A DNA stretch of 58,987 bases from a virus, in the IMG/VR virus record IMGVR_UViG_3300013126_000003, positions 1-58,987 of that record; one strand, 5' to 3'. Below the pieces are notes generated by a model that was given only the letters and a program-made list of their open reading frames with translations, did not search any database and had not been told where the DNA came from. The position numbers and the translations under genes are program-made. This document shows positions 3,101-30,126 of the stretch, piece by piece (position 1 is the first letter of the stretch; every line of letters begins with the position of its first letter).

Positions 3101-6100
3101 GGATGCTAAGATTGCTTGGATGAGTATCGCCAAGGAAGTGGCCAAGCAGATAAAAGAGCTTGTCGTTGCAGGAAAGATAACCAATAAGCAAGCGGCTAGC
3201 GTCATCACAAGACTCGCCAAGGTGAACATGTTCAGTCAGGACTCTATCGACAAGTTCGCGGACTACATGACCAAGGTGTTCAACGATGCTAACTACGACA
3301 TGAAGATTGAGAAGGCCCGCAAGAAATTACCTCGCGCCCTTCAAAACCTCAAGAAGAAAATTGGTATGTCTACCGCCCTTGCTCCGTCATTGGTTAGATT
3401 ATTCTCGATCAACCCTAGTCTCATCCCTGACAAGGTGCTTGAGAGATATCTTGAGTTAGTGGATATGTTCGGAAGCTCAGACACTGTTCTTGAGTTGGAC
3501 AATGTAACCACCGTTACTAACGACGTGAATGAGATACTCAATGCGGTTAGTGATGAGATTGACCTAGCTGACGAACTTGCTCTTCGATTGGAAGAATTTG
3601 AAGACAGAGTGTACGATGAGGATGGCAAGCTAGAGTACGCCAAGACAATAGCCAAGATGTTAGATGCAGATGTCATCTCTCAAGAGGAGGCTGAGGTTAT
3701 GCGCAAGTACAAAAATCAAATCCTACCTCAAGCTGAGAAGTCTGAGGCAACTAAAGAGGAGGTAGAAGAAGAGAAGAAGGGTCTTGTAAGAGCTATCAAG
3801 GCTATGACAATTAGCGTTGAGTTATTGCCAACAAGACTTGAGAGAGACTTGGCCAAGCGATTGGCTAGCCTTCTTAAGTCTGACCTACTCATGAAGATGT
3901 CGGTCAATCAGTTGAACAATGTAATCAAGTTGATTGATAATATCAACAACGGGTATGCACCGCGCTACGCTCAAATCTTGGTTGAGAAACTCAACTCTAT
4001 CGAAAGAGCCAAGGAGGATGTAGTCCCATCAGTTGAGACAGCCAAGCCACTTAAGTTCTCAAACTTTGTGGGCAAGGTGAAGGCGTCGTTCAAGGGAACT
4101 ACCGCTGCTCTTGAGATGATCCGCAGAACTCCGCTCACATTCATTGGCCATATCTTCGGCGACTTTAAGACCAACAAGATGTTCAATGGTGTGTTTGGTA
4201 TGTTGGCATCAAGCCAAGCTGCGTTCGATGCTGAGATGAACAGAGTGAACAAGAAGCTCAATGCGGCTCACGATGCCGTGGCTAAGTCACACAAGTATAG
4301 CACGAACAAAACACTTGAGTCTTCATTTAGAATGATGGCTTATATGCTTCAGCTTGAGTACGACAGTAATCCGGGTAGTGACAAAGTGAACACAGCGGCT
4401 AGCTTTATCAGAGCTACCCTTAAACATATCGCTAAGGACAAGGCTAAGTACAAAGAGAAAGATGCTGCATTGCTAGAAGATATCCTTGATAAGTACGGCA
4501 AAGACGTGACAGACAAGAAGGGTAACACGGTTAGAGAGATTGATATGAACAAGCTGCACAAGTCTTTCAATAAGGCTGAGCTTGAGGCTATCAAAACCAT
4601 TCGTGAAATAAATGATGGACTCACAGAGAAGGCTGTATACACTGCGTCAATCATTCGCGGTGAGAACATCTCTGTGCTAAACAACTATGTTCACCTTCCT
4701 GTTCTTCATGACTACAACCCGAACGAAAGGTCTACCGGTATTCAGAATGCTAACGCTTACAACAACTCACGAAGAGCGTCTTCTAAAGCTAAGACGTTAG
4801 AGGAACGCTCGGGTGATGTTTCACCGATTAACTTCGATGCCTTCGCATCTGCGCAGAGAGGGGCCAAATTTACACTCTTAGACTTCCACATGACTGAGGC
4901 TATCAGAACTGCGAGAAAGACCATTACAGAGGCCCGCGCGATGATGGAGGATAAGGGTACATTTAAGGGTGAGAAGAGAGAGATTCTCAACGCGATAGAC
5001 AAAGCTCTCGAGGAAGCGATCCGCAATGTGCTTACCAACAACTTCATCACCGATAGTTTTTGGGAGTCTGTTGCTAACGAGATATCTAAGCAGGGGTACC
5101 GTGCTATTCTTGCTAGCGCAGAGAGGTTCACAGCTGAGCTTGCATCTAACATGAGCTTTGTTCTGCTATCGGACCACGCGTCATTTGTTACAGGTGCTAA
5201 GTACAGCTCGGTGGTTATGTCTCCTGACGCTGTTCATATCATGGACAACGTGAGAAGTAAACAAACCAATCGACTATTCAGCGGTGATGCATTAACGGGC
5301 CGACTTATAGACACCTCCATCTTAGGTCAAGCAAGCGGAGTTAGATCGGTGGTATCTAGGAGTGCTGTTGCTGATGTGTCGAACATCATCTACAATCACT
5401 CGCTTAAGAAATTCAAGAACGGGGTTGAGGTTGTAGCTGACACGCTCATCTCTACTCCCGATAAGGTGGTGATGCGCCCTGTTTGGTTTGGTGCTTTTGC
5501 TAATGAGTTCAAAGCTATCACAGGTAAAGAGGTTGACTTCAAGAAGATTGCTGAGAATGATGAGGCTTACATGAATGCCAACAAGGATGCTATTAGTAGA
5601 GCTCGTGATGTTGCCGACACAAAGTCTATGTTTACCGGTGCTAGTGACAACCCATTTATGGGTATTCTTAAGAGCGCTGTTCATGCAGACGATGGCACGG
5701 TGAAGAGAGCGTACAAGAACTTCAACAACTTCATGACTCGATTCACTATCTACGAATACTCAGTAGCAAGACAAGGTATCTATGCCGCTATGGGTAATGG
5801 GTCTATCACAAAAGCTCAAGGGGTTAAACTTATTGCAGGTGTTACCGCTCGTATGACTACCTACACTCTGTTGACATCACTACTTGGAAGCGCTGTATTA
5901 TCTATGTTTGGTATCGAAGATGAGGAAGAAGAAACTAAGAAGACTTTCTTACAGAAACTTTCTCAAGCTCTAGCATCGTCAGCCACGTCGCTTATTGTAG
6001 GGCGTGACTTTGGTAATGCAGTGAAGGCATTCACCAATGCGGGTGTCGAGAAGATAAACGAGGAGTTCTTTACCGCCTTGAGAAAGGCTGATGTGAATGA

Positions 6101-6965
6101 ACGCACGGGCGAGGTAACTTATCCATACGATCCGTATACCGACGCCATTTCTTACTCACCTCTTCCTAAGTCTAAGAAAGGACAACAGACAGACCTAGGT
6201 GATATCTTAACCATATTCGCCGGGTCGTTCACTCCTCTTGCAAAGACAGCAGACTTAGCAATCAAGAAGACATTTGAGGGACCTAAGAAAGAAGCGTCTG
6301 CTATCGAGAGGCAGAAGAACGAGATACTCTTACGATTGCCACTTGAGATACTTGGCAACATGGGTATGATACCTCTTTATAAAGACGTGAGAAGGGTTGT
6401 GATGGGTACAATATACGAGGACCTTCAGAAAGAGCAGCGTGCAAAAACAAAAGCACAGCAGGAGAATGAGTTCCAAAAGAGCAGACTTGGCATCTATCAG
6501 TCCAAGGAAGATATGAAGCGATACGACCCTGACTTGTACGAGAAAACATTCGGGCCATCGTCTCCTTACTACGAGGAGGACGAGCAACATCGCGCTGAAG
6601 AAAGAGCTAAGTCAAAAGCAAAGAGAGAAGCCAAGGACTTTCAGTTTGGTTACGAACAAGACCAAGTGATTGAGAAGGATGAGCTTACCCGAGCAGAGCT
6701 TAAGCGTTATTTCCCTCAAGAGTATGAGAAGAAGTATGGCAAGAGTGCGCCCAACTACAAAGAGATAGAGGCCGAGCGAAAGAAGAGTAAGGAAGAAAGA
6801 CTTAAGAGAAGACAGATGCTTGATAAGCAGTTTGGATACACATCTACCGAGAGAGGTTCTAGCACAAGAGGGACCGGCTCAACTCGTGGTGAGTCAACTA
6901 GAGGAGAAGGCTTAACTAGAGGAGGGTCGAGCACAAGAGGTGGGTCAAGTCTTAGAGGGAGGTGA
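1..6965 (+). CDS. Giant internal virion/polyvalent protein, C-terminal two thirds
   Basis: This is the 3' part of a 3396-residue protein whose start is at 55639; the frame is open from the first base and matches across the circular join. Visible parts, numbered on the whole protein: a zincin-type metal site HEVWH at about 1286-1290 inside LPHEVWHGIL; a Trp-rich segment around 1590-1660 (THWGKNWNGWCLIS); about 240 residues of short 'W..NG....E' repeats resembling YwqK/MORN-like repeats (about 1665-1905); long helical, Lys/Glu-rich stretches; a hydrophobic segment near 3040-3065; two tandem copies of a motif ending QFGY; and a C-terminal tail of TRG repeats (about 3356-3396). Size, mosaic layout and position after two internal virion proteins match phage polyvalent proteins that are ejected with the DNA. 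The peptidase activity is inferred only from HExxH. Confidence 0.9.
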   Translation, partial: PESERTEWQNGIIDTVESSLKETLAPAPAPTQSTASKVFAHVNDAVTELSDAFFDGLKDDEQYTFYTHTIDQVPPEFRNTAMEDKSAAKRSKVLGLPIGKRQGTIYKFTASGLKAKEMRGKIIESMSSKMGTNKAEIFANTMRSVANVFPDLKSVLFDTTEEMIDYANGISPSLGDGILGDEGGIIITKNGKPVVILINNQNSNPTTLPHEVWHGILLKAFGSNELLFAEFREAIKERLIKNGYQNIVDELDRFANNEEYIKSNQQAEEWLVQLGGLLTASGITRENITPKTRALLDDIKSVFNQVAEKLFGYPVFLEDATAEDVLDFMVAISERMAKGQDISSFFRDKESKAAAQGTQVSKQIGAKKKAEYAARLEKERPDIANQGTAQSIVDLVEKFGEENSQDGKGNPKLEKLAFHWIGRGNVKLPEDGYKIVEAEKLATKNKVDPFAFSNPIDIMEKFKGTIKEKPVDPDTVKEFSNKVTIPGTNVTVYNVEDTKEGQAAVRRIADTHWGKNWNGWCLISRTGNDNDLENGWKLWEENYNKTPKKIAFDNGKIIAFQASDTNQEKWWDKRDEPFDGVPIRENIEDGKYKVRSTSESGDVLYTKTYKITPGKEEQWNEDGVRIFEKINDKNGKAVYEQEWNDDASPKSKTYFNLGGANNVLKISFDEGTISDFNTDIHGGFETAENADLENYKIFNTDGSISAELSTEENEDDLTKTITITLFNDDGSVQNQAQKEIKYDESMDVSLGASVKITDENGLVRKKVKYQGSGRAGFYGKVKESSTWYTNGSKKSEVLNNTPQNYSETREWNENGQLVKEDVVPYDEQHFDYDYQKTGDGSGMFEEIQRIAKSYNVDIKGFAPAAVSEFQLEKELRPYGYSAKRSKAEPSGRQRGVYIVDPKGRFYNPFKIKAQRINLDAGNLEENVSSIPGYARMVDEANKVLEKSLRRGNSWDKSMENVMAYVTNSAVYERANDSQREQLVRNVRAEFGKREKSAPSVAKLFDTIKDIKMITMDEVELLKKQLRDLARGAKDAKIAWMSIAKEVAKQIKELVVAGKITNKQAASVITRLAKVNMFSQDSIDKFADYMTKVFNDANYDMKIEKARKKLPRALQNLKKKIGMSTALAPSLVRLFSINPSLIPDKVLERYLELVDMFGSSDTVLELDNVTTVTNDVNEILNAVSDEIDLADELALRLEEFEDRVYDEDGKLEYAKTIAKMLDADVISQEEAEVMRKYKNQILPQAEKSEATKEEVEEEKKGLVRAIKAMTISVELLPTRLERDLAKRLASLLKSDLLMKMSVNQLNNVIKLIDNINNGYAPRYAQILVEKLNSIERAKEDVVPSVETAKPLKFSNFVGKVKASFKGTTAALEMIRRTPLTFIGHIFGDFKTNKMFNGVFGMLASSQAAFDAEMNRVNKKLNAAHDAVAKSHKYSTNKTLESSFRMMAYMLQLEYDSNPGSDKVNTAASFIRATLKHIAKDKAKYKEKDAALLEDILDKYGKDVTDKKGNTVREIDMNKLHKSFNKAELEAIKTIREINDGLTEKAVYTASIIRGENISVLNNYVHLPVLHDYNPNERSTGIQNANAYNNSRRASSKAKTLEERSGDVSPINFDAFASAQRGAKFTLLDFHMTEAIRTARKTITEARAMMEDKGTFKGEKREILNAIDKALEEAIRNVLTNNFITDSFWESVANEISKQGYRAILASAERFTAELASNMSFVLLSDHASFVTGAKYSSVVMSPDAVHIMDNVRSKQTNRLFSGDALTGRLIDTSILGQASGVRSVVSRSAVADVSNIIYNHSLKKFKNGVEVVADTLISTPDKVVMRPVWFGAFANEFKAITGKEVDFKKIAENDEAYMNANKDAISRARDVADTKSMFTGASDNPFMGILKSAVHADDGTVKRAYKNFNNFMTRFTIYEYSVARQGIYAAMGNGSITKAQGVKLIAGVTARMTTYTLLTSLLGSAVLSMFGIEDEEEETKKTFLQKLSQALASSATSLIVGRDFGNAVKAFTNAGVEKINEEFFTALRKADVNERTGEVTYPYDPYTDAISYSPLPKSKKGQQTDLGDILTIFAGSFTPLAKTADLAIKKTFEGPKKEASAIERQKNEILLRLPLEILGNMGMIPLYKDVRRVVMGTIYEDLQKEQRAKTKAQQENEFQKSRLGIYQSKEDMKRYDPDLYEKTFGPSSPYYEEDEQHRAEERAKSKAKREAKDFQFGYEQDQVIEKDELTRAELKRYFPQEYEKKYGKSAPNYKEIEAERKKSKEERLKRRQMLDKQFGYTSTERGSSTRGTGSTRGESTRGEGLTRGGSSTRGGSSLRGR

Positions 6966-7382
6966 GAACCTCACATACTTCAAAGACTTCTGCTTCTCGT
7001 AGTATACCATAAGCTCAACATCGCTGACAGCACCATTGCGGGGAGTTCTACCTCCCTGCCTTATCTGTCCTTCTAGCTTGTCAGGCTTACCGTATATGAT
7101 ACCATCCTCACACGCCCATATGATGACAGGGTTGAGACGTTTGTCTACGAGCTTAATAACCTTATGGGCAGAAATAGGAAGAGGATAAGCCTCTCTCATG
7201 GTTCTTATCCTCCCCTTTACCTCAGCGTACCCTACAACCTTACCGTCTTTATCGAACACTTTGTAGTCGATATCGAATGGGTCTAGCTTCTGATACGACC
7301 CTGAGAATATCTTGACGAAAGTCTCGATAGCCCTCTTCTCTCTTGCTAGGTCTTCTTCGGTTTCAAAAATCATCTTCTTCAA
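6945..7382 (-). CDS. PD-(D/E)XK-like nuclease
   Basis: A 145-residue protein with the pattern D-IDYKVFD...GYAEVKGR, the usual D...ExK core of a restriction-endonuclease-like fold, at about residues 37-57. It could be a Holliday-junction resolvase or a small endonuclease acting in recombination or packaging. It is the last gene of the leftward operon: its start overlaps the preceding gene by 20 bases, and its 3' end overlaps the 3' end of the giant gene by 21 bases on the other strand. The fold assignment is by motif only. Confidence 0.7.
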   Translation of the reverse strand: MKKMIFETEEDLAREKRAIETFVKIFSGSYQKLDPFDIDYKVFDKDGKVVGYAEVKGRIRTMREAYPLPISAHKVIKLVDKRLNPVIIWACEDGIIYGKPDKLEGQIRQGGRTPRNGAVSDVELMVYYEKQKSLKYVRFSPPSKT

Positions 7383-14169: not shown

Positions 14170-14368
14170 TTTGAGATTCTAACAAAAGCAGTCTCTCGTT
14201 TAAGCACTGAATGTATGCGGCCATTATGACGTGTTGCATTTGAAGCAATGCCTGCTGTGCATTGTCTAGCTCAAAAAACTTATCTTCAAATAAGAAAGCA
14301 CCTAGCTTAACGTGCTTCTCCCGTAGTTCGTCGCGCTCGACAACAAGTCTCTCTATAAATGTACTCAT
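14156..14368 (-). CDS. Hypothetical helical protein, 70 aa
   Basis: The start at 14368 (MSTFIERLV) is preferred to one 36 bases further upstream because it gives a 4-base ATGA overlap with the preceding gene. The protein is almost entirely helical and coiled-coil-like (RDELREKHVKLG..., NAQQALLQMQHVIM). Function unknown. Confidence 0.6.
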   Translation of the reverse strand: MSTFIERLVVERDELREKHVKLGAFLFEDKFFELDNAQQALLQMQHVIMAAYIQCLNERLLLLESQIGFE

Positions 14369-14613
14369 TTGTTCAACCCCTTGGCAATGCCCTTTACTCC
14401 GCACATCTGTGCTGTCTCAAGCTCAGTCATGGCGATACTGAAGCAACGCTTGGCTTCGCCGTCCTCAGTGGATTGCAGCTCATTGTTGCAATAGTCAATG
14501 GCATCAGCCATCATGCGCTTGAATGTTCCAATCTTATCGTCAGCGGACGGATTGAAATTGATGTGACATCTCGACTCCCCGAGTGTCAACTCTTTCTTTG
14601 GTGTTAAAATCAT
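14365..14613 (-). CDS. Hypothetical protein, 82 aa
   Basis: Contains KRMMADAIDYCNN and a helical C-terminus (FSIAMTELETAQMCGVKG) like that of small uncharacterised phage proteins that monitor nucleotides or bind other proteins. It is coupled by 4-base overlaps on both sides. Function unknown. Confidence 0.6.
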   Translation of the reverse strand: MILTPKKELTLGESRCHINFNPSADDKIGTFKRMMADAIDYCNNELQSTEDGEAKRCFSIAMTELETAQMCGVKGIAKGLNK

Positions 14614-23573: not shown

Positions 23574-23605
23574 CAAAGATACGACATTACTTTGCAAAAA
23601 GCAAA
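23574..23605 (-). promoter_or_regulatory. Promoter of the amidotransferase-amidoligase unit
   Basis: Minus strand: TTTG (23605-23602), a 20-base spacer, then TATCTTTG (23581-23574). This matches the Bacteroidota -33/-7 consensus exactly. It lies 45 bases before the start codon. Confidence 0.88.
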
Positions 23606-24785: not shown

Positions 24786-24817
24786 CAAAGATACAACAAA
24801 GTTATATCGAATGCAAA
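24786..24817 (-). promoter_or_regulatory. Bacteroidota-type promoter
   Basis: Minus strand: TTTG (24817-24814), a 20-base spacer, TATCTTTG (24793-24786). It reads into palindrome copy 5 and the Cys-rich gene. Confidence 0.88.
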
Positions 24818-27152: not shown

Positions 27153-27184
27153 TTTGCATAGCTCTGCATGGTGGTATATATTTG
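27153..27184 (+). promoter_or_regulatory. Promoter of the chaperonin cassette
   Basis: TTTG (27153-27156), a 20-base spacer, TATATTTG (27177-27184), then 20 bases to the GroEL ATG. It is a close match to the Bacteroidota consensus. Confidence 0.88.
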
Positions 27185-27204: not shown

Positions 27205-28812
27205 ATGGACTCAACACTTGGATATTCTCCGAAAGACCTTCGCTTCGATGCAGACGCGAGAGGTAAGTTAATCAAAGGTGTAGTAAAAATGTCTCGTGCT
27301 GTCAAGAGTACTTTGGGCCCTAGCGGGAACACGGTGCTAATTGAGTCGGCCGAGCACACCCATGGGCTGACCGTCACCAAGGATGGTGTTACGGTGGCCA
27401 AATCTATTTTTCTCATTGACCCGGTTGAGAACCTAGCGGTCCGTATGATGAAAGAGGCGGCAGATCGCACGGCGACTTCTGCAGGTGATGGTACCACTAC
27501 GGCAATTGTTCTTACTGAGGCGCTTGTGCTTGCGGGTAATGAGCTGATGAGTCCTGACTTGAATCGCACTGAGGTGCTTCGCTCTCTTGTGGAGCAGTCA
27601 AACGGTGTGGTGGACAAGCTCAAGAAGCATTCAAAGAAGTTATCCAACAAGATGCTTGTGGATGTGGCTACAATTTCAGCCAACAATGACAAGTCGGTTG
27701 GGAAAATTATCGCTGACGTGTACAAAGAAGTGGGCAAGAACGGTGTGGTGACGGTTGAGAAGAGTCAAACAAGCGAGACATACGCTGAGGTGACCAAGGG
27801 GATCAAGATTCCTAGAGGGTATTTGAGCAATTTGTTCGCCAATAATCAGCGAAGAGATGAGTGTGTGCTTGAGGACGTGGACATTTTGGTGGCTGACATT
27901 GAGATTTCAAACTTACTGCAGCTTGAGAACATCCTCAAACCAATTATTCAAGAAGGCCGGAAGCTATTTATCATTGCTCCGTGCAATGTGAACGTGGTCA
28001 ATACCCTTGCAGCTAACGTGATGAAGGGGAATTTGAAGGTGTGCGCGGTGCCTCCGCCTAATTTTGGGTACAAACAGCACGAGCTCATGCAAGATATCGC
28101 GGTGAGTGTGGGTGCAACCTACTTCAGCGAGAAGACCGGGGACGATTTGAGCCTCATTACATACGCGGACCTAGGGCATGCTACTAAAGTTATCGTCAAT
28201 AACGAGCAAGCGATCGTCATTCGTTCCAATGTCAAGTCTAATGATGAGAAAATTGCTGAGCGCGTGACCCAATTGTGGCAGTCACATGAGGAGGCGACCC
28301 GCAAAGCTGACAAAGATTTTATTTTAGAACGTATTGCTTCCCTAACAGGGGGCATCGGGGTGATATTTGCCGGTGGCAACACTGACCTTGAGCAAAAAGA
28401 GTTGTATGATCGCATTGATGACGCCGTGTGCGCGGTGCGTTCGGCCCTTGAGGAGGGTATATTGCCGGGTGGCGGCATGTCGCTCGCGTATATGGTGAAC
28501 GACAAGGCTGAGGACGGAATGAGCAAGGAGAAGATGGCTGCACGCAACATCTTAAACCTAGCCCTTGTGTCGCCAATGAACCAAATCATTGAGAACGCAG
28601 GGCTGTGCGCCAACAATTTATACAATGGCCGTGAGGAGTTTGGTGAGGGAGTCAATGTGAAGACCGGCGAGAAGGGTAATCTCATCCAAATGGGGGTGAT
28701 TGACCCGCTTAAGGTGACTCGATCGGCCCTTGAGAACGCAGTGAGTGTGGCCACAACAATTCTTAGTACTAATGCCGTGGTGACCATGGCTCGAACTTAT
28801 GATGCTCAGTAA
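27205..28812 (+). CDS. groEL: Phage GroEL-type chaperonin (60 kDa subunit)
   Basis: 535 residues, full length for the equatorial-intermediate-apical layout. The nucleotide-binding loops TLGPSGNTV (36-44) and GDGTTTA (94-100) are intact, the RIDDAV segment keeps the catalytic Asp expected at the D398 equivalent, and GILPGGG and DPLKVTRSALENAVSVA mark the returning equatorial domain. The C-terminal GGM-repeat tail of bacterial GroEL is missing (ends ARTYDAQ). It should form ATP-driven folding rings with the GroES encoded two genes on, probably for capsid or giant virion proteins. It is well diverged from bacterial GroEL, so an old phage gene. Confidence 0.95.
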   Translation: MDSTLGYSPKDLRFDADARGKLIKGVVKMSRAVKSTLGPSGNTVLIESAEHTHGLTVTKDGVTVAKSIFLIDPVENLAVRMMKEAADRTATSAGDGTTTAIVLTEALVLAGNELMSPDLNRTEVLRSLVEQSNGVVDKLKKHSKKLSNKMLVDVATISANNDKSVGKIIADVYKEVGKNGVVTVEKSQTSETYAEVTKGIKIPRGYLSNLFANNQRRDECVLEDVDILVADIEISNLLQLENILKPIIQEGRKLFIIAPCNVNVVNTLAANVMKGNLKVCAVPPPNFGYKQHELMQDIAVSVGATYFSEKTGDDLSLITYADLGHATKVIVNNEQAIVIRSNVKSNDEKIAERVTQLWQSHEEATRKADKDFILERIASLTGGIGVIFAGGNTDLEQKELYDRIDDAVCAVRSALEEGILPGGGMSLAYMVNDKAEDGMSKEKMAARNILNLALVSPMNQIIENAGLCANNLYNGREEFGEGVNVKTGEKGNLIQMGVIDPLKVTRSALENAVSVATTILSTNAVVTMARTYDAQ

Positions 28813-28814
28813 TT

Positions 28815-29171
28815 ATGATCGACATTATACATGTGGCCAAGGCGTGCCACGAGGCGAACAAGGTGTACTGCGAGAGTCTTGGTGACTTTACGCAGGAGCA
28901 TTGGGAGAATGCACCCCAATGGCAGAAGGACAGCGCGGTGAGCGGGGTCAAGCACATCATTGACAACCCTGACGTTACCGCTGAGCAGATGCATGACAAT
29001 TGGATGGCTGAGAAGAAGGCTGACGGGTGGCGATTTGGGATAACCAAGGACGCATTTGCTAAGACACACCCCTGCCTCATCCCATATAACTTCCTTCCTA
29101 TTGAGCAACGGATGAAGGACACACTATTTATTTCAATCGCAAGATCATTCTACAATGAAGCCAATCGGTAA
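28815..29171 (+). CDS. RyR-domain protein, 118 aa
   Basis: The single domain matches the RyR (ryanodine-receptor-type) repeat family as found in phages: ENAPQWQKDSAVSGVKHI, ENPD-like DNPDVTAEQMHDNWM, KADGWRFG and HPCLIPYNFLPIEQRMKD. RyR domains in phages have no proven role; a ligand- or protein-binding function is likely. It starts 2 bases after groEL and overlaps groES by 17 bases, so all three are one unit. Confidence 0.85.
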   Translation: MIDIIHVAKACHEANKVYCESLGDFTQEHWENAPQWQKDSAVSGVKHIIDNPDVTAEQMHDNWMAEKKADGWRFGITKDAFAKTHPCLIPYNFLPIEQRMKDTLFISIARSFYNEANR

Positions 29172-29412
29172 GTATATCATCGTGACCAATCTCGAGGAGG
29201 AGGTCAAGACAGACGCAGGGCTAATCCTTTCAGGTGAGGACCTAAATCAATTCAGATACAAAAAGGGCGTGGTCGTTGAGCCGGGCACTGAGGTGACCAC
29301 TATTTTTAAGGACGACAAGATTTACTACGACAAGACGCACAGCTTTACAATGATGATTGGGGGAGGGCATTATACTGTTCTTCGCGAAGCCGACGTTGTT
29401 GTTGTCGAATAG
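29155..29412 (+). CDS. groES: Phage GroES-type co-chaperonin
   Basis: 85 residues. It starts MKPIGKYIIVTNLEEEVKTD, has a mobile-loop segment AGLILSGEDL where GroES has its hydrophobic GroEL-contacting tripeptide (here LIL), then GVVVEPG and a C-terminal EADVVVVE strand like the DILAIVE end of GroES. It should cap the phage GroEL ring. Its last 68 bases overlap the minus-strand regulator gene. Confidence 0.88.
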   Translation: MKPIGKYIIVTNLEEEVKTDAGLILSGEDLNQFRYKKGVVVEPGTEVTTIFKDDKIYYDKTHSFTMMIGGGHYTVLREADVVVVE

Positions 29413-29836
29413 ACTCGTTTCTAATTTGTATCTGCTCAACGTGACGCTTGTCTACACGGCGTTGTGTCTTCTTGCGATACAAGGGTGAGTTCTGTTCTTG
29501 TATAAACCCACCCTCTAGTTGTTTGTACAATGCACTCACAAGTACTGAGCCTTTGCGTGATATCTGATAGCGCGCTGCGCGTGGACCCTTTGTCTTCTTA
29601 AAGATATCCACCCACCCATTCTCAACAAGTTTCTTAAGTCGTATTCGATTGAGCTTTAATGACCGGTCAAATGCCAAGAACGTCTTCATGGTGAAGTAGG
29701 GCTCGGAGTACAAGAAGATAATCATATCAAGATCGGAGCTCGTCAGGTTGTACTTCACCTTAGTGTAGTGATAGATGGTGCGCCAATACTTGAGGTAGTC
29801 ATGCTTTCTCTTCGGTGGTTTTTCTCTTGGGATCAT
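29345..29836 (-). CDS. Winged-helix (MarR-like) transcription regulator
   Basis: 163 residues from ATG 29836, chosen because promoter TAACTTTG lies just upstream; longer starts would run through the promoter. NLTSSDLDMIIFLYSEPYFTMKTF, then RSLKLNRIRLKKLVENGWVDIFKK and the ARYQISRKG wing fit a MarR-like winged helix. The tail is Arg/Gln-rich. It is the only minus-strand gene in the right arm, divergent from the next plus-strand genes and convergent with groES, so it may regulate one or both. Confidence 0.78.
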   Translation of the reverse strand: MIPREKPPKRKHDYLKYWRTIYHYTKVKYNLTSSDLDMIIFLYSEPYFTMKTFLAFDRSLKLNRIRLKKLVENGWVDIFKKTKGPRAARYQISRKGSVLVSALYKQLEGGFIQEQNSPLYRKKTQRRVDKRHVEQIQIRNESIRQQQRRLREEQYNALPQSSL

Positions 29837-29853
29837 CGTAAAGTAAATTTGAT

Positions 29854-29861
29854 TATATTTG
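29854..29861 (+). promoter_or_regulatory. Rightward promoter element TATATTTG
   Basis: A -7-type element 22 bases before the GTG start at 29884. It overlaps the leftward promoter region of the regulator gene, so the two transcripts should compete. Confidence 0.6.
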
Positions 29862-29863
29862 TG

Positions 29864-29894
29864 CAAAGTTAATCTACAAGATTGTGAACTCAAA
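29864..29894 (-). promoter_or_regulatory. Leftward promoter of the winged-helix regulator
   Basis: Minus strand: TTTG (29894-29891), a 19-base spacer, TAACTTTG (29871-29864), then 27 bases to the ATG. Confidence 0.8.
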
Positions 29895-30126
29895 AGAATC
29901 TCCAAAAGACAAACCCGAGGATATTGCATTCCGCAATAACGTCATCAATCGCCTATCAAACCTTGAGAGTACTTACAATACTCAAAGAGAAGAGAGGGTA
30001 AAAGCGGCTAAGGCTTCTAACATTCTCAAGAAGAATTTAGGCAAGGCAGCGAGAGAGATTGCCGGCCTTCAGTCTCTAGGTGGATTCAATTCAGGTCTAG
30101 GTAATCCCACAAAAATCATAAAGTAA
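29884..30126 (+). CDS. Hypothetical coiled-coil protein, 80 aa (GTG start)
   Basis: Helical protein NSKESPKDKPEDIAFRNNV then VINRLSNLESTYNTQREERV, with a Gly-rich end. The GTG at 29884 is the only start giving full length and follows the divergent promoter pair. Possibly a minor virion or DNA-packaging accessory protein. Overlaps the next gene by 1 base. Confidence 0.6.
   Translation: MNSKESPKDKPEDIAFRNNVINRLSNLESTYNTQREERVKAAKASNILKKNLGKAAREIAGLQSLGGFNSGLGNPTKIIK

Follow-up and report, generated by a model that had tools for sequence, protein, structure and literature searches.

A probable anti-Thoeris RyR-domain protein in an exchangeable gene slot between groEL and groES of a crAss-like phage

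Phage proteins with an RyR domain (PF02026) cleave or sequester 2'cADPR and 3'cADPR and defeat Thoeris, according to a preprint of May 2026 that is not peer reviewed (PMC13232231). The founding member, RyDEP of mycobacteriophage DyoEdafos (gp78), cleaves the signals, whereas six of eight other phage homologues bound cADPR signals, two did not, and none cleaved; the catalytic H75/D117 pair is also found in non-cleaving homologues (PMC13232231). In vivo, RyDEP and both of the sponge-type homologues tested block Thoeris (PMC13232231). Tad2 (PF11195) and the Acb2/Tad1 hairpin proteins (PF24729) are different protein families without homology to RyR, and sequestration of nucleotide immune signals is known for members of both. 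Phage group I chaperonin pairs, in which one phage encodes both GroEL and GroES, have been described separately (Marine et al., 2017, as cited in PMC7185714).

The locus analyzed here combines an RyR-domain gene with such a chaperonin pair. It lies in a 58,987-base virus record (IMGVR_UViG_3300013126_000003, about 59 kb), the whole of which is referred to below as the window. The window encodes crAss muzzle-domain and crAss001_48-like proteins together with terminase, portal, and virion proteins, a Sak-like annealing protein, and helicases, and because of these genes the phage is a crAss-like podovirus. Within it, groEL, an RyR-domain gene, and groES are three intact genes in one overlapping unit, as the preliminary description had stated and as profile matches and coordinates confirm (Table 1); 2 nt separate the end of groEL from the RyR start, and the RyR gene and groES overlap by 17 nt. 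A consensus promoter had also been claimed upstream of groEL. The sigma-70-like match at that place is weak (9/12), but an exact box of the Bacteroidota-type pattern TTTG-N20-TAnnTTTG is present there as a putative promoter, from which the three genes would be co-transcribed. Boxes of this type number five in the window against 0.67 expected, and five were reached in none of 100 shuffles; since the boxes are enriched and crAss-like genes are present, the host is probably a member of the Bacteroidota.

Table 1. Coordinates of the chaperonin operon and of a second predicted sponge gene in the window
Feature	Position	Strand	Basis and remarks
Putative Bacteroidota-type promoter, TTTG-N20-TATATTTG	27153..27184	+	Exact pattern match, directly upstream of groEL
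groEL (Cpn60), 535 aa	27205..28812	+	ATPase residues intact, GGM tail absent; Cpn60_TCP1 E 1.7e-52, PHROG GroEL E 1.8e-131
RyR-domain (RyDEP-family) gene, 118 aa, predicted cADPR-signal binder	28815..29171	+	PF02026 E 1.9e-11
RyR key codons	H60 28992-28994; W63 29001-29003; H85 29067-29069; D102 29118-29120	+	Residue mapping
groES (Cpn10), 85 aa, short form without roof-hairpin segment	29155..29412	+	Cpn10 E 5.4e-09
Acb2/Tad1-hairpin protein, 82 aa, FNPS motif	14365..14613	-	PF24729 E 1.3e-08, above cut-off; outside operon

Further exact TTTG-N19-21-TAnnTTTG boxes lie at 23574-23605 and 24786-24817. Downstream of the operon, the 3' end of a convergent ORF (29345-29929, minus strand) overlaps the 3' end of groES. 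This ORF has no Pfam match, the gene in the same place in the nearest annotated record (uncultured Podoviridae sp., MW202828) is annotated as "repressor protein," and its product is perhaps a regulator of the operon.

Both chaperonin proteins retain the features by which their families are recognized. The ATPase residues D52, D87, and D398 of E. coli GroEL correspond to D60, D95, and D406 of the window protein and are all invariant in an alignment with the E. coli sequence, in which the absence of the GGM tail is also evident; the window GroEL is thus a group I chaperonin by its Cpn60 family membership and its aspartates, and its earlier description as full-length, with an intact active site and no GGM tail, was accurate. 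The window GroES combines a Cpn10 domain with a conserved mobile loop (GLIL against GIVL in E. coli) and lacks the roof-hairpin segment. The pair probably folds virion proteins. A phage GroEL accompanied by its own GroES had been considered uncommon, which needs qualification, given that this groEL is present on hundreds of IMG/VR contigs and almost always adjoins groES.

The RyR protein can be placed in the RyDEP family with respect to both sequence and predicted structure. Its PF02026 match exceeds the gathering score and was recovered in a whole-record search as well, and at the sequence level the protein also matches 35tm, the structure entry of RyDEP (E 1.3e-10). When sets of 11 and 56 sequences were aligned, H75, W78, H100, and D117 of RyDEP corresponded to H60, W63, H85, and D102 of the window protein; these four ligand or catalytic residues are invariant in both alignments, the larger of which comprises 56 homologues, while Q54 of RyDEP is replaced by A41, as in most homologues. 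In the PDB, the AF2 model (mean pLDDT 95.8) is matched best by RyR Repeat-12 (R12) structures solved in the presence of AMP-PCP, ADP, or ATP, at Z 8-10 across 118 residues, and the protein is accordingly predicted to adopt the R12 fold with its nucleotide pocket. Publicly recorded Pectobacterium phages encode RyR proteins that are 50-52% identical to it; a Pectobacterium-phage homologue was among the tested sponges (PMC13232231), although it may not come from the phage matched here. Sequestration of the signal is more likely than its hydrolysis, because only the founding member cleaved and none of the eight other homologues did. The PADLOC models returned no match for this protein or for the slot proteins described below.

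The same pocket could in principle serve another small nucleotide, such as ADP-ribose, ATP, or another messenger, in metabolism or in a defense other than Thoeris. Animal RyR R12 domains bind ATP, ADP, and drugs, two of the eight phage homologues did not bind the cADPR isomers (PMC13232231), and no NARP1-like NAD+ synthesis gene (Adps or Namat) was recognized in the window by Pfam searches of its 56 small and medium ORFs and the scanned large ORFs. This reading is nevertheless rather unlikely in view of the six homologues that did bind the signals, the two sponge types that both blocked Thoeris in vivo, and the co-location and fusion of RyR with Tad2 and Acb2/Tad1, which point to immune signals.

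This co-location is seen when the interval between groEL and groES is compared among relatives. The groEL sequences from three IMG/VR searches, to which those of the window and of an annotated relative were added, formed 134 clusters when grouped at 98% nucleotide identity; a single cluster (L381) belongs to another lineage. Among the remaining 133, groES follows groEL in 131 and was undetected in the other two. The distance between the two genes (median 346 bp) is no more than 100 bp in 23 lineages and greater in 108. Across the 131 lineages with both genes, this slot holds RyR in seven, Tad2 in four, and an Acb2/Tad1-like gene in seven, with at least one of the three present in 16; in some relatives it is empty. 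The minimum number of changes on the groEL tree is six for RyR, four for Tad2, and seven for Acb2/Tad1, and on the RyR tree, which rests on a short alignment, chaperonin linkage requires at least five changes, at least two of them forced by well-supported branches. With at least five changes on one tree and at least six on the other, RyR has been repeatedly gained or lost, and exchanged, at a single site. In 49 whole records, mostly large contigs, 14 of the 18 clade matches to the three families lie within the slot, a stretch with a mean length of 0.5 kb in a genome of about 60 kb. All seven RyR-bearing clade members have a single RyR gene, and in each it occupies the slot, while an eighth match comes from L381 of the other lineage; Tad2 lies there in three of four matches and Acb2/Tad1 in four of seven, although four of these seven score below the family cut-off.

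The slot also accepts other kinds of genes, including those for a DGFD family (phrog_13182), zinc-ribbon proteins, a PRTase-like protein (phrog_29004), a class II tRNA-synthetase-like protein with MazG, HNH or PD-(D/E)XK nucleases, and uncharacterized ORFs. The commonest occupant, found in about a third of lineages, is DGFD ("DGFDDAIIGV..RLVYS," about 83 aa; e.g., L061:7611-7850), the model of which is confident (pLDDT 90.6) and has no convincing PDB match; it is a candidate for an undescribed counter-defense family. The PRTase-like protein (weak Pribosyltran match; L046:7867-8382, L038, L044, and others) occurs alone or beside Tad2 and could be NAD-related. In L062, L077, and L170-L182, the synthetase-like protein (PF00152) is often accompanied by a MazG-like pyrophosphatase.

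The preliminary description had rightly reported a phage chaperonin pair with an RyR gene in its operon, and had proposed from the position of that gene that its product is a third chaperonin component (an adaptor, client, or regulator) acting with this GroEL and GroES. The tight, overlapping operon is compatible with that proposal, as are a lone groES adjoined by RyR (L386) and the reversed order groES-RyR-groEL in an unrelated lineage (L381 at 4628-7011, L400, and L405), the GroEL of which is 33% identical to that of the window. However, the expected conservation of a groEL-RyR-groES order extends to the groEL-groES pair only, as RyR occupies the gap in just seven of 134 groEL lineages, has been repeatedly gained or lost, and is absent from about 95% of lineages, with the unrelated Tad2 and Acb2/Tad1-like genes in its place; the use of the same slot by those families also rules out a one-to-one specificity between RyR and the chaperonin. 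Elsewhere, RyR genes mostly lack a neighboring chaperonin gene: of 160 phage RyR loci, one (L381) has groEL within 4-5 kb and four have Cpn10 directly beside RyR, and among 80 bacterial RyR loci no chaperonin gene is directly adjacent, the nearest being 1.1 kb away. Together with the conserved nucleotide pocket and the fusions to other sponges, these observations make a third component very improbable; linkage fails to support it, whether among clade members, in phages elsewhere, or in bacteria. The replacement of RyR by other sponges and its membership of a published anti-Thoeris family indicate instead that counter-defense, rather than a part in the chaperonin, is the most likely role of the middle gene.

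RyR genes are nearly unlinked to chaperonins on this evidence, but their adjacency to co-chaperonin genes in unrelated phages exceeds chance placement, so that the linkage of RyR to the co-chaperonin may itself be meaningful. A gene matching the Cpn10 profile was found in the flanks of six of the 160 phage RyR loci (the four mentioned above and two more about 2 kb away) and of ten of 80 Tad2 loci, two of which are slots of the window clade, and it usually lies right next to the sponge. When each Cpn10 family from beyond the window clade was represented once, the two genes were no more than 650 bp apart in 9 of the 11 families with RyR or Tad2 within 4-5 kb of Cpn10, against 2.0 expected, and none of 20,000 random placements reached that number; this sample is small and drawn from metagenomic contigs, and two of its 11 Cpn10 calls are weak (L616 and L342). 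In L598, L613, and L596, a Cpn10-Tad2 pair is located between portal and scaffold genes, and L267 has RyR-Cpn10. In addition, Cpn10 genes that are 60% identical are followed by Tad2 in L565 (3289-3944) and by RyR in L296 (3437-4204), which suggests that the same exchange has occurred beside the co-chaperonin in another phage group.

These patterns fit a permissive site for cargo next to the co-chaperonin gene, and functional coupling is possible. Sponge and chaperonin might be co-expressed without forming a complex if both are needed when virion proteins are produced, for example if capsid synthesis triggers the signal. Such coupling is compatible with the anti-Thoeris reading and would add a reason for the location of the gene; it would be favored by the proximity of the two genes in nine families, by the portal-Cpn10-scaffold modules, and by the Cpn10 family that adjoins Tad2 in one phage and RyR in another. 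On the other hand, none of ten annotated phages with a head-module GroES has a sponge beside it, GroES adjoins the Tad2 or RyR gene in none of the eight annotated phages sampled for these genes, and a permissive insertion site explains the pattern in this small metagenomic sample equally well, so that the coupling is rather unlikely. It is also tempting to speculate, as a distinctly long shot, that phages in general couple co-chaperonins to NAD-signal sponges, with virion-protein production triggering signals and the sponge being kept and made beside the co-chaperonin gene; if true, this would explain why RyR, Tad2, and Acb2/Tad1 recur beside groES in unrelated phages. Literature searches, with most subscription journals outside their scope, returned no report of co-chaperonin/sponge adjacency, which is new as far as these searches reach.

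In related proteins, RyR domains are joined physically to the same sponge families. An RyR domain is fused to a Tad2-like domain on a Bacteroidetes MAG contig (L487:4986-5651) and to Acb2/Tad1 hairpins in L503 and in Sulfitobacter phage phiCB2047-B (L086). That RyR is fused to members of two known sponge families, and is exchanged with both in the slot, lends independent support to the assignment of the RyR protein to the same functional class. In Aeromonas phage Ahp1_CNU-2021 (L639), a Tad2-like gene is directly upstream of a nicotinamide phosphoribosyltransferase gene. The window itself encodes, outside the operon, the hairpin protein listed in Table 1, which is homologous to slot proteins of relatives and is predicted to be a second nucleotide-signal sponge of this phage.

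Thus, the RyR protein is probably an anti-Thoeris signal sponge, encoded in a cargo slot and co-transcribed with the chaperonin pair of a crAss-like phage. The most likely model is that this phage, probably of Bacteroidota, makes its own GroEL and GroES, probably for virion proteins, and uses the gap between their genes as a cargo slot on one transcript, in which a RyDEP-family gene is carried. Host Thoeris TIR enzymes would convert NAD+ to 2'cADPR, 3'cADPR, or a related signal, which the RyR protein would bind in its R12 pocket (H60, W63, H85, and D102), and the effector would be kept off. Two of the eight homologues in the preprint bound no signals, however, and because the slot also takes HNH endonucleases, a tRNA-synthetase-like gene, and uncharacterized proteins, position alone does not prove a counter-defense role. 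What had seemed a novel chaperonin partner would nonetheless become a testable anti-Thoeris protein of crAss-like phages, and the small uncharacterized genes that clade members carry between groEL and groES, DGFD above all, would become candidate counter-defense genes. Should larger samples bear out the adjacency of co-chaperonin and sponge genes, NAD-signal immunity would be tied to virion assembly.

Compared with the described systems, the window protein shares with RyDEP its Pfam domain, the four ligand or catalytic residues, and a similar size, yet is only about 27% identical to it and is nearer to other phage homologues. RyDEP of DyoEdafos resides in a NARP1 operon, whereas the neighbors of the window RyR gene are groEL and groES; a NARP1-like NAD+ operon around the RyR gene was rejected, no NAD-synthesis family having been recognized among the scanned ORFs of the window, and NARP1 linkage is not a defining trait of the whole RyDEP family. 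With the known phage group I chaperonin pairs, the locus has in common a Cpn60 with intact ATPase residues and its own Cpn10; it differs in that their order is groES-groEL rather than groEL-X-groES, and in its short GroES and the cargo slot between the genes. The closest annotated counterpart, Podoviridae sp. ctfjg026 (MW202828, Manatee Spring), shares the layout, with groEL and groES 62% and 57% identical to those of the window, but its slot is empty and groEL adjoins groES. In relatives, Tad2 and Acb2/Tad1 proteins occupy the very slot that holds RyR in the window. The family and its probable function are already known; what appears to be new is the arrangement, in which the chaperonin operon of a crAss-like phage contains an exchangeable slot for signal sponges.
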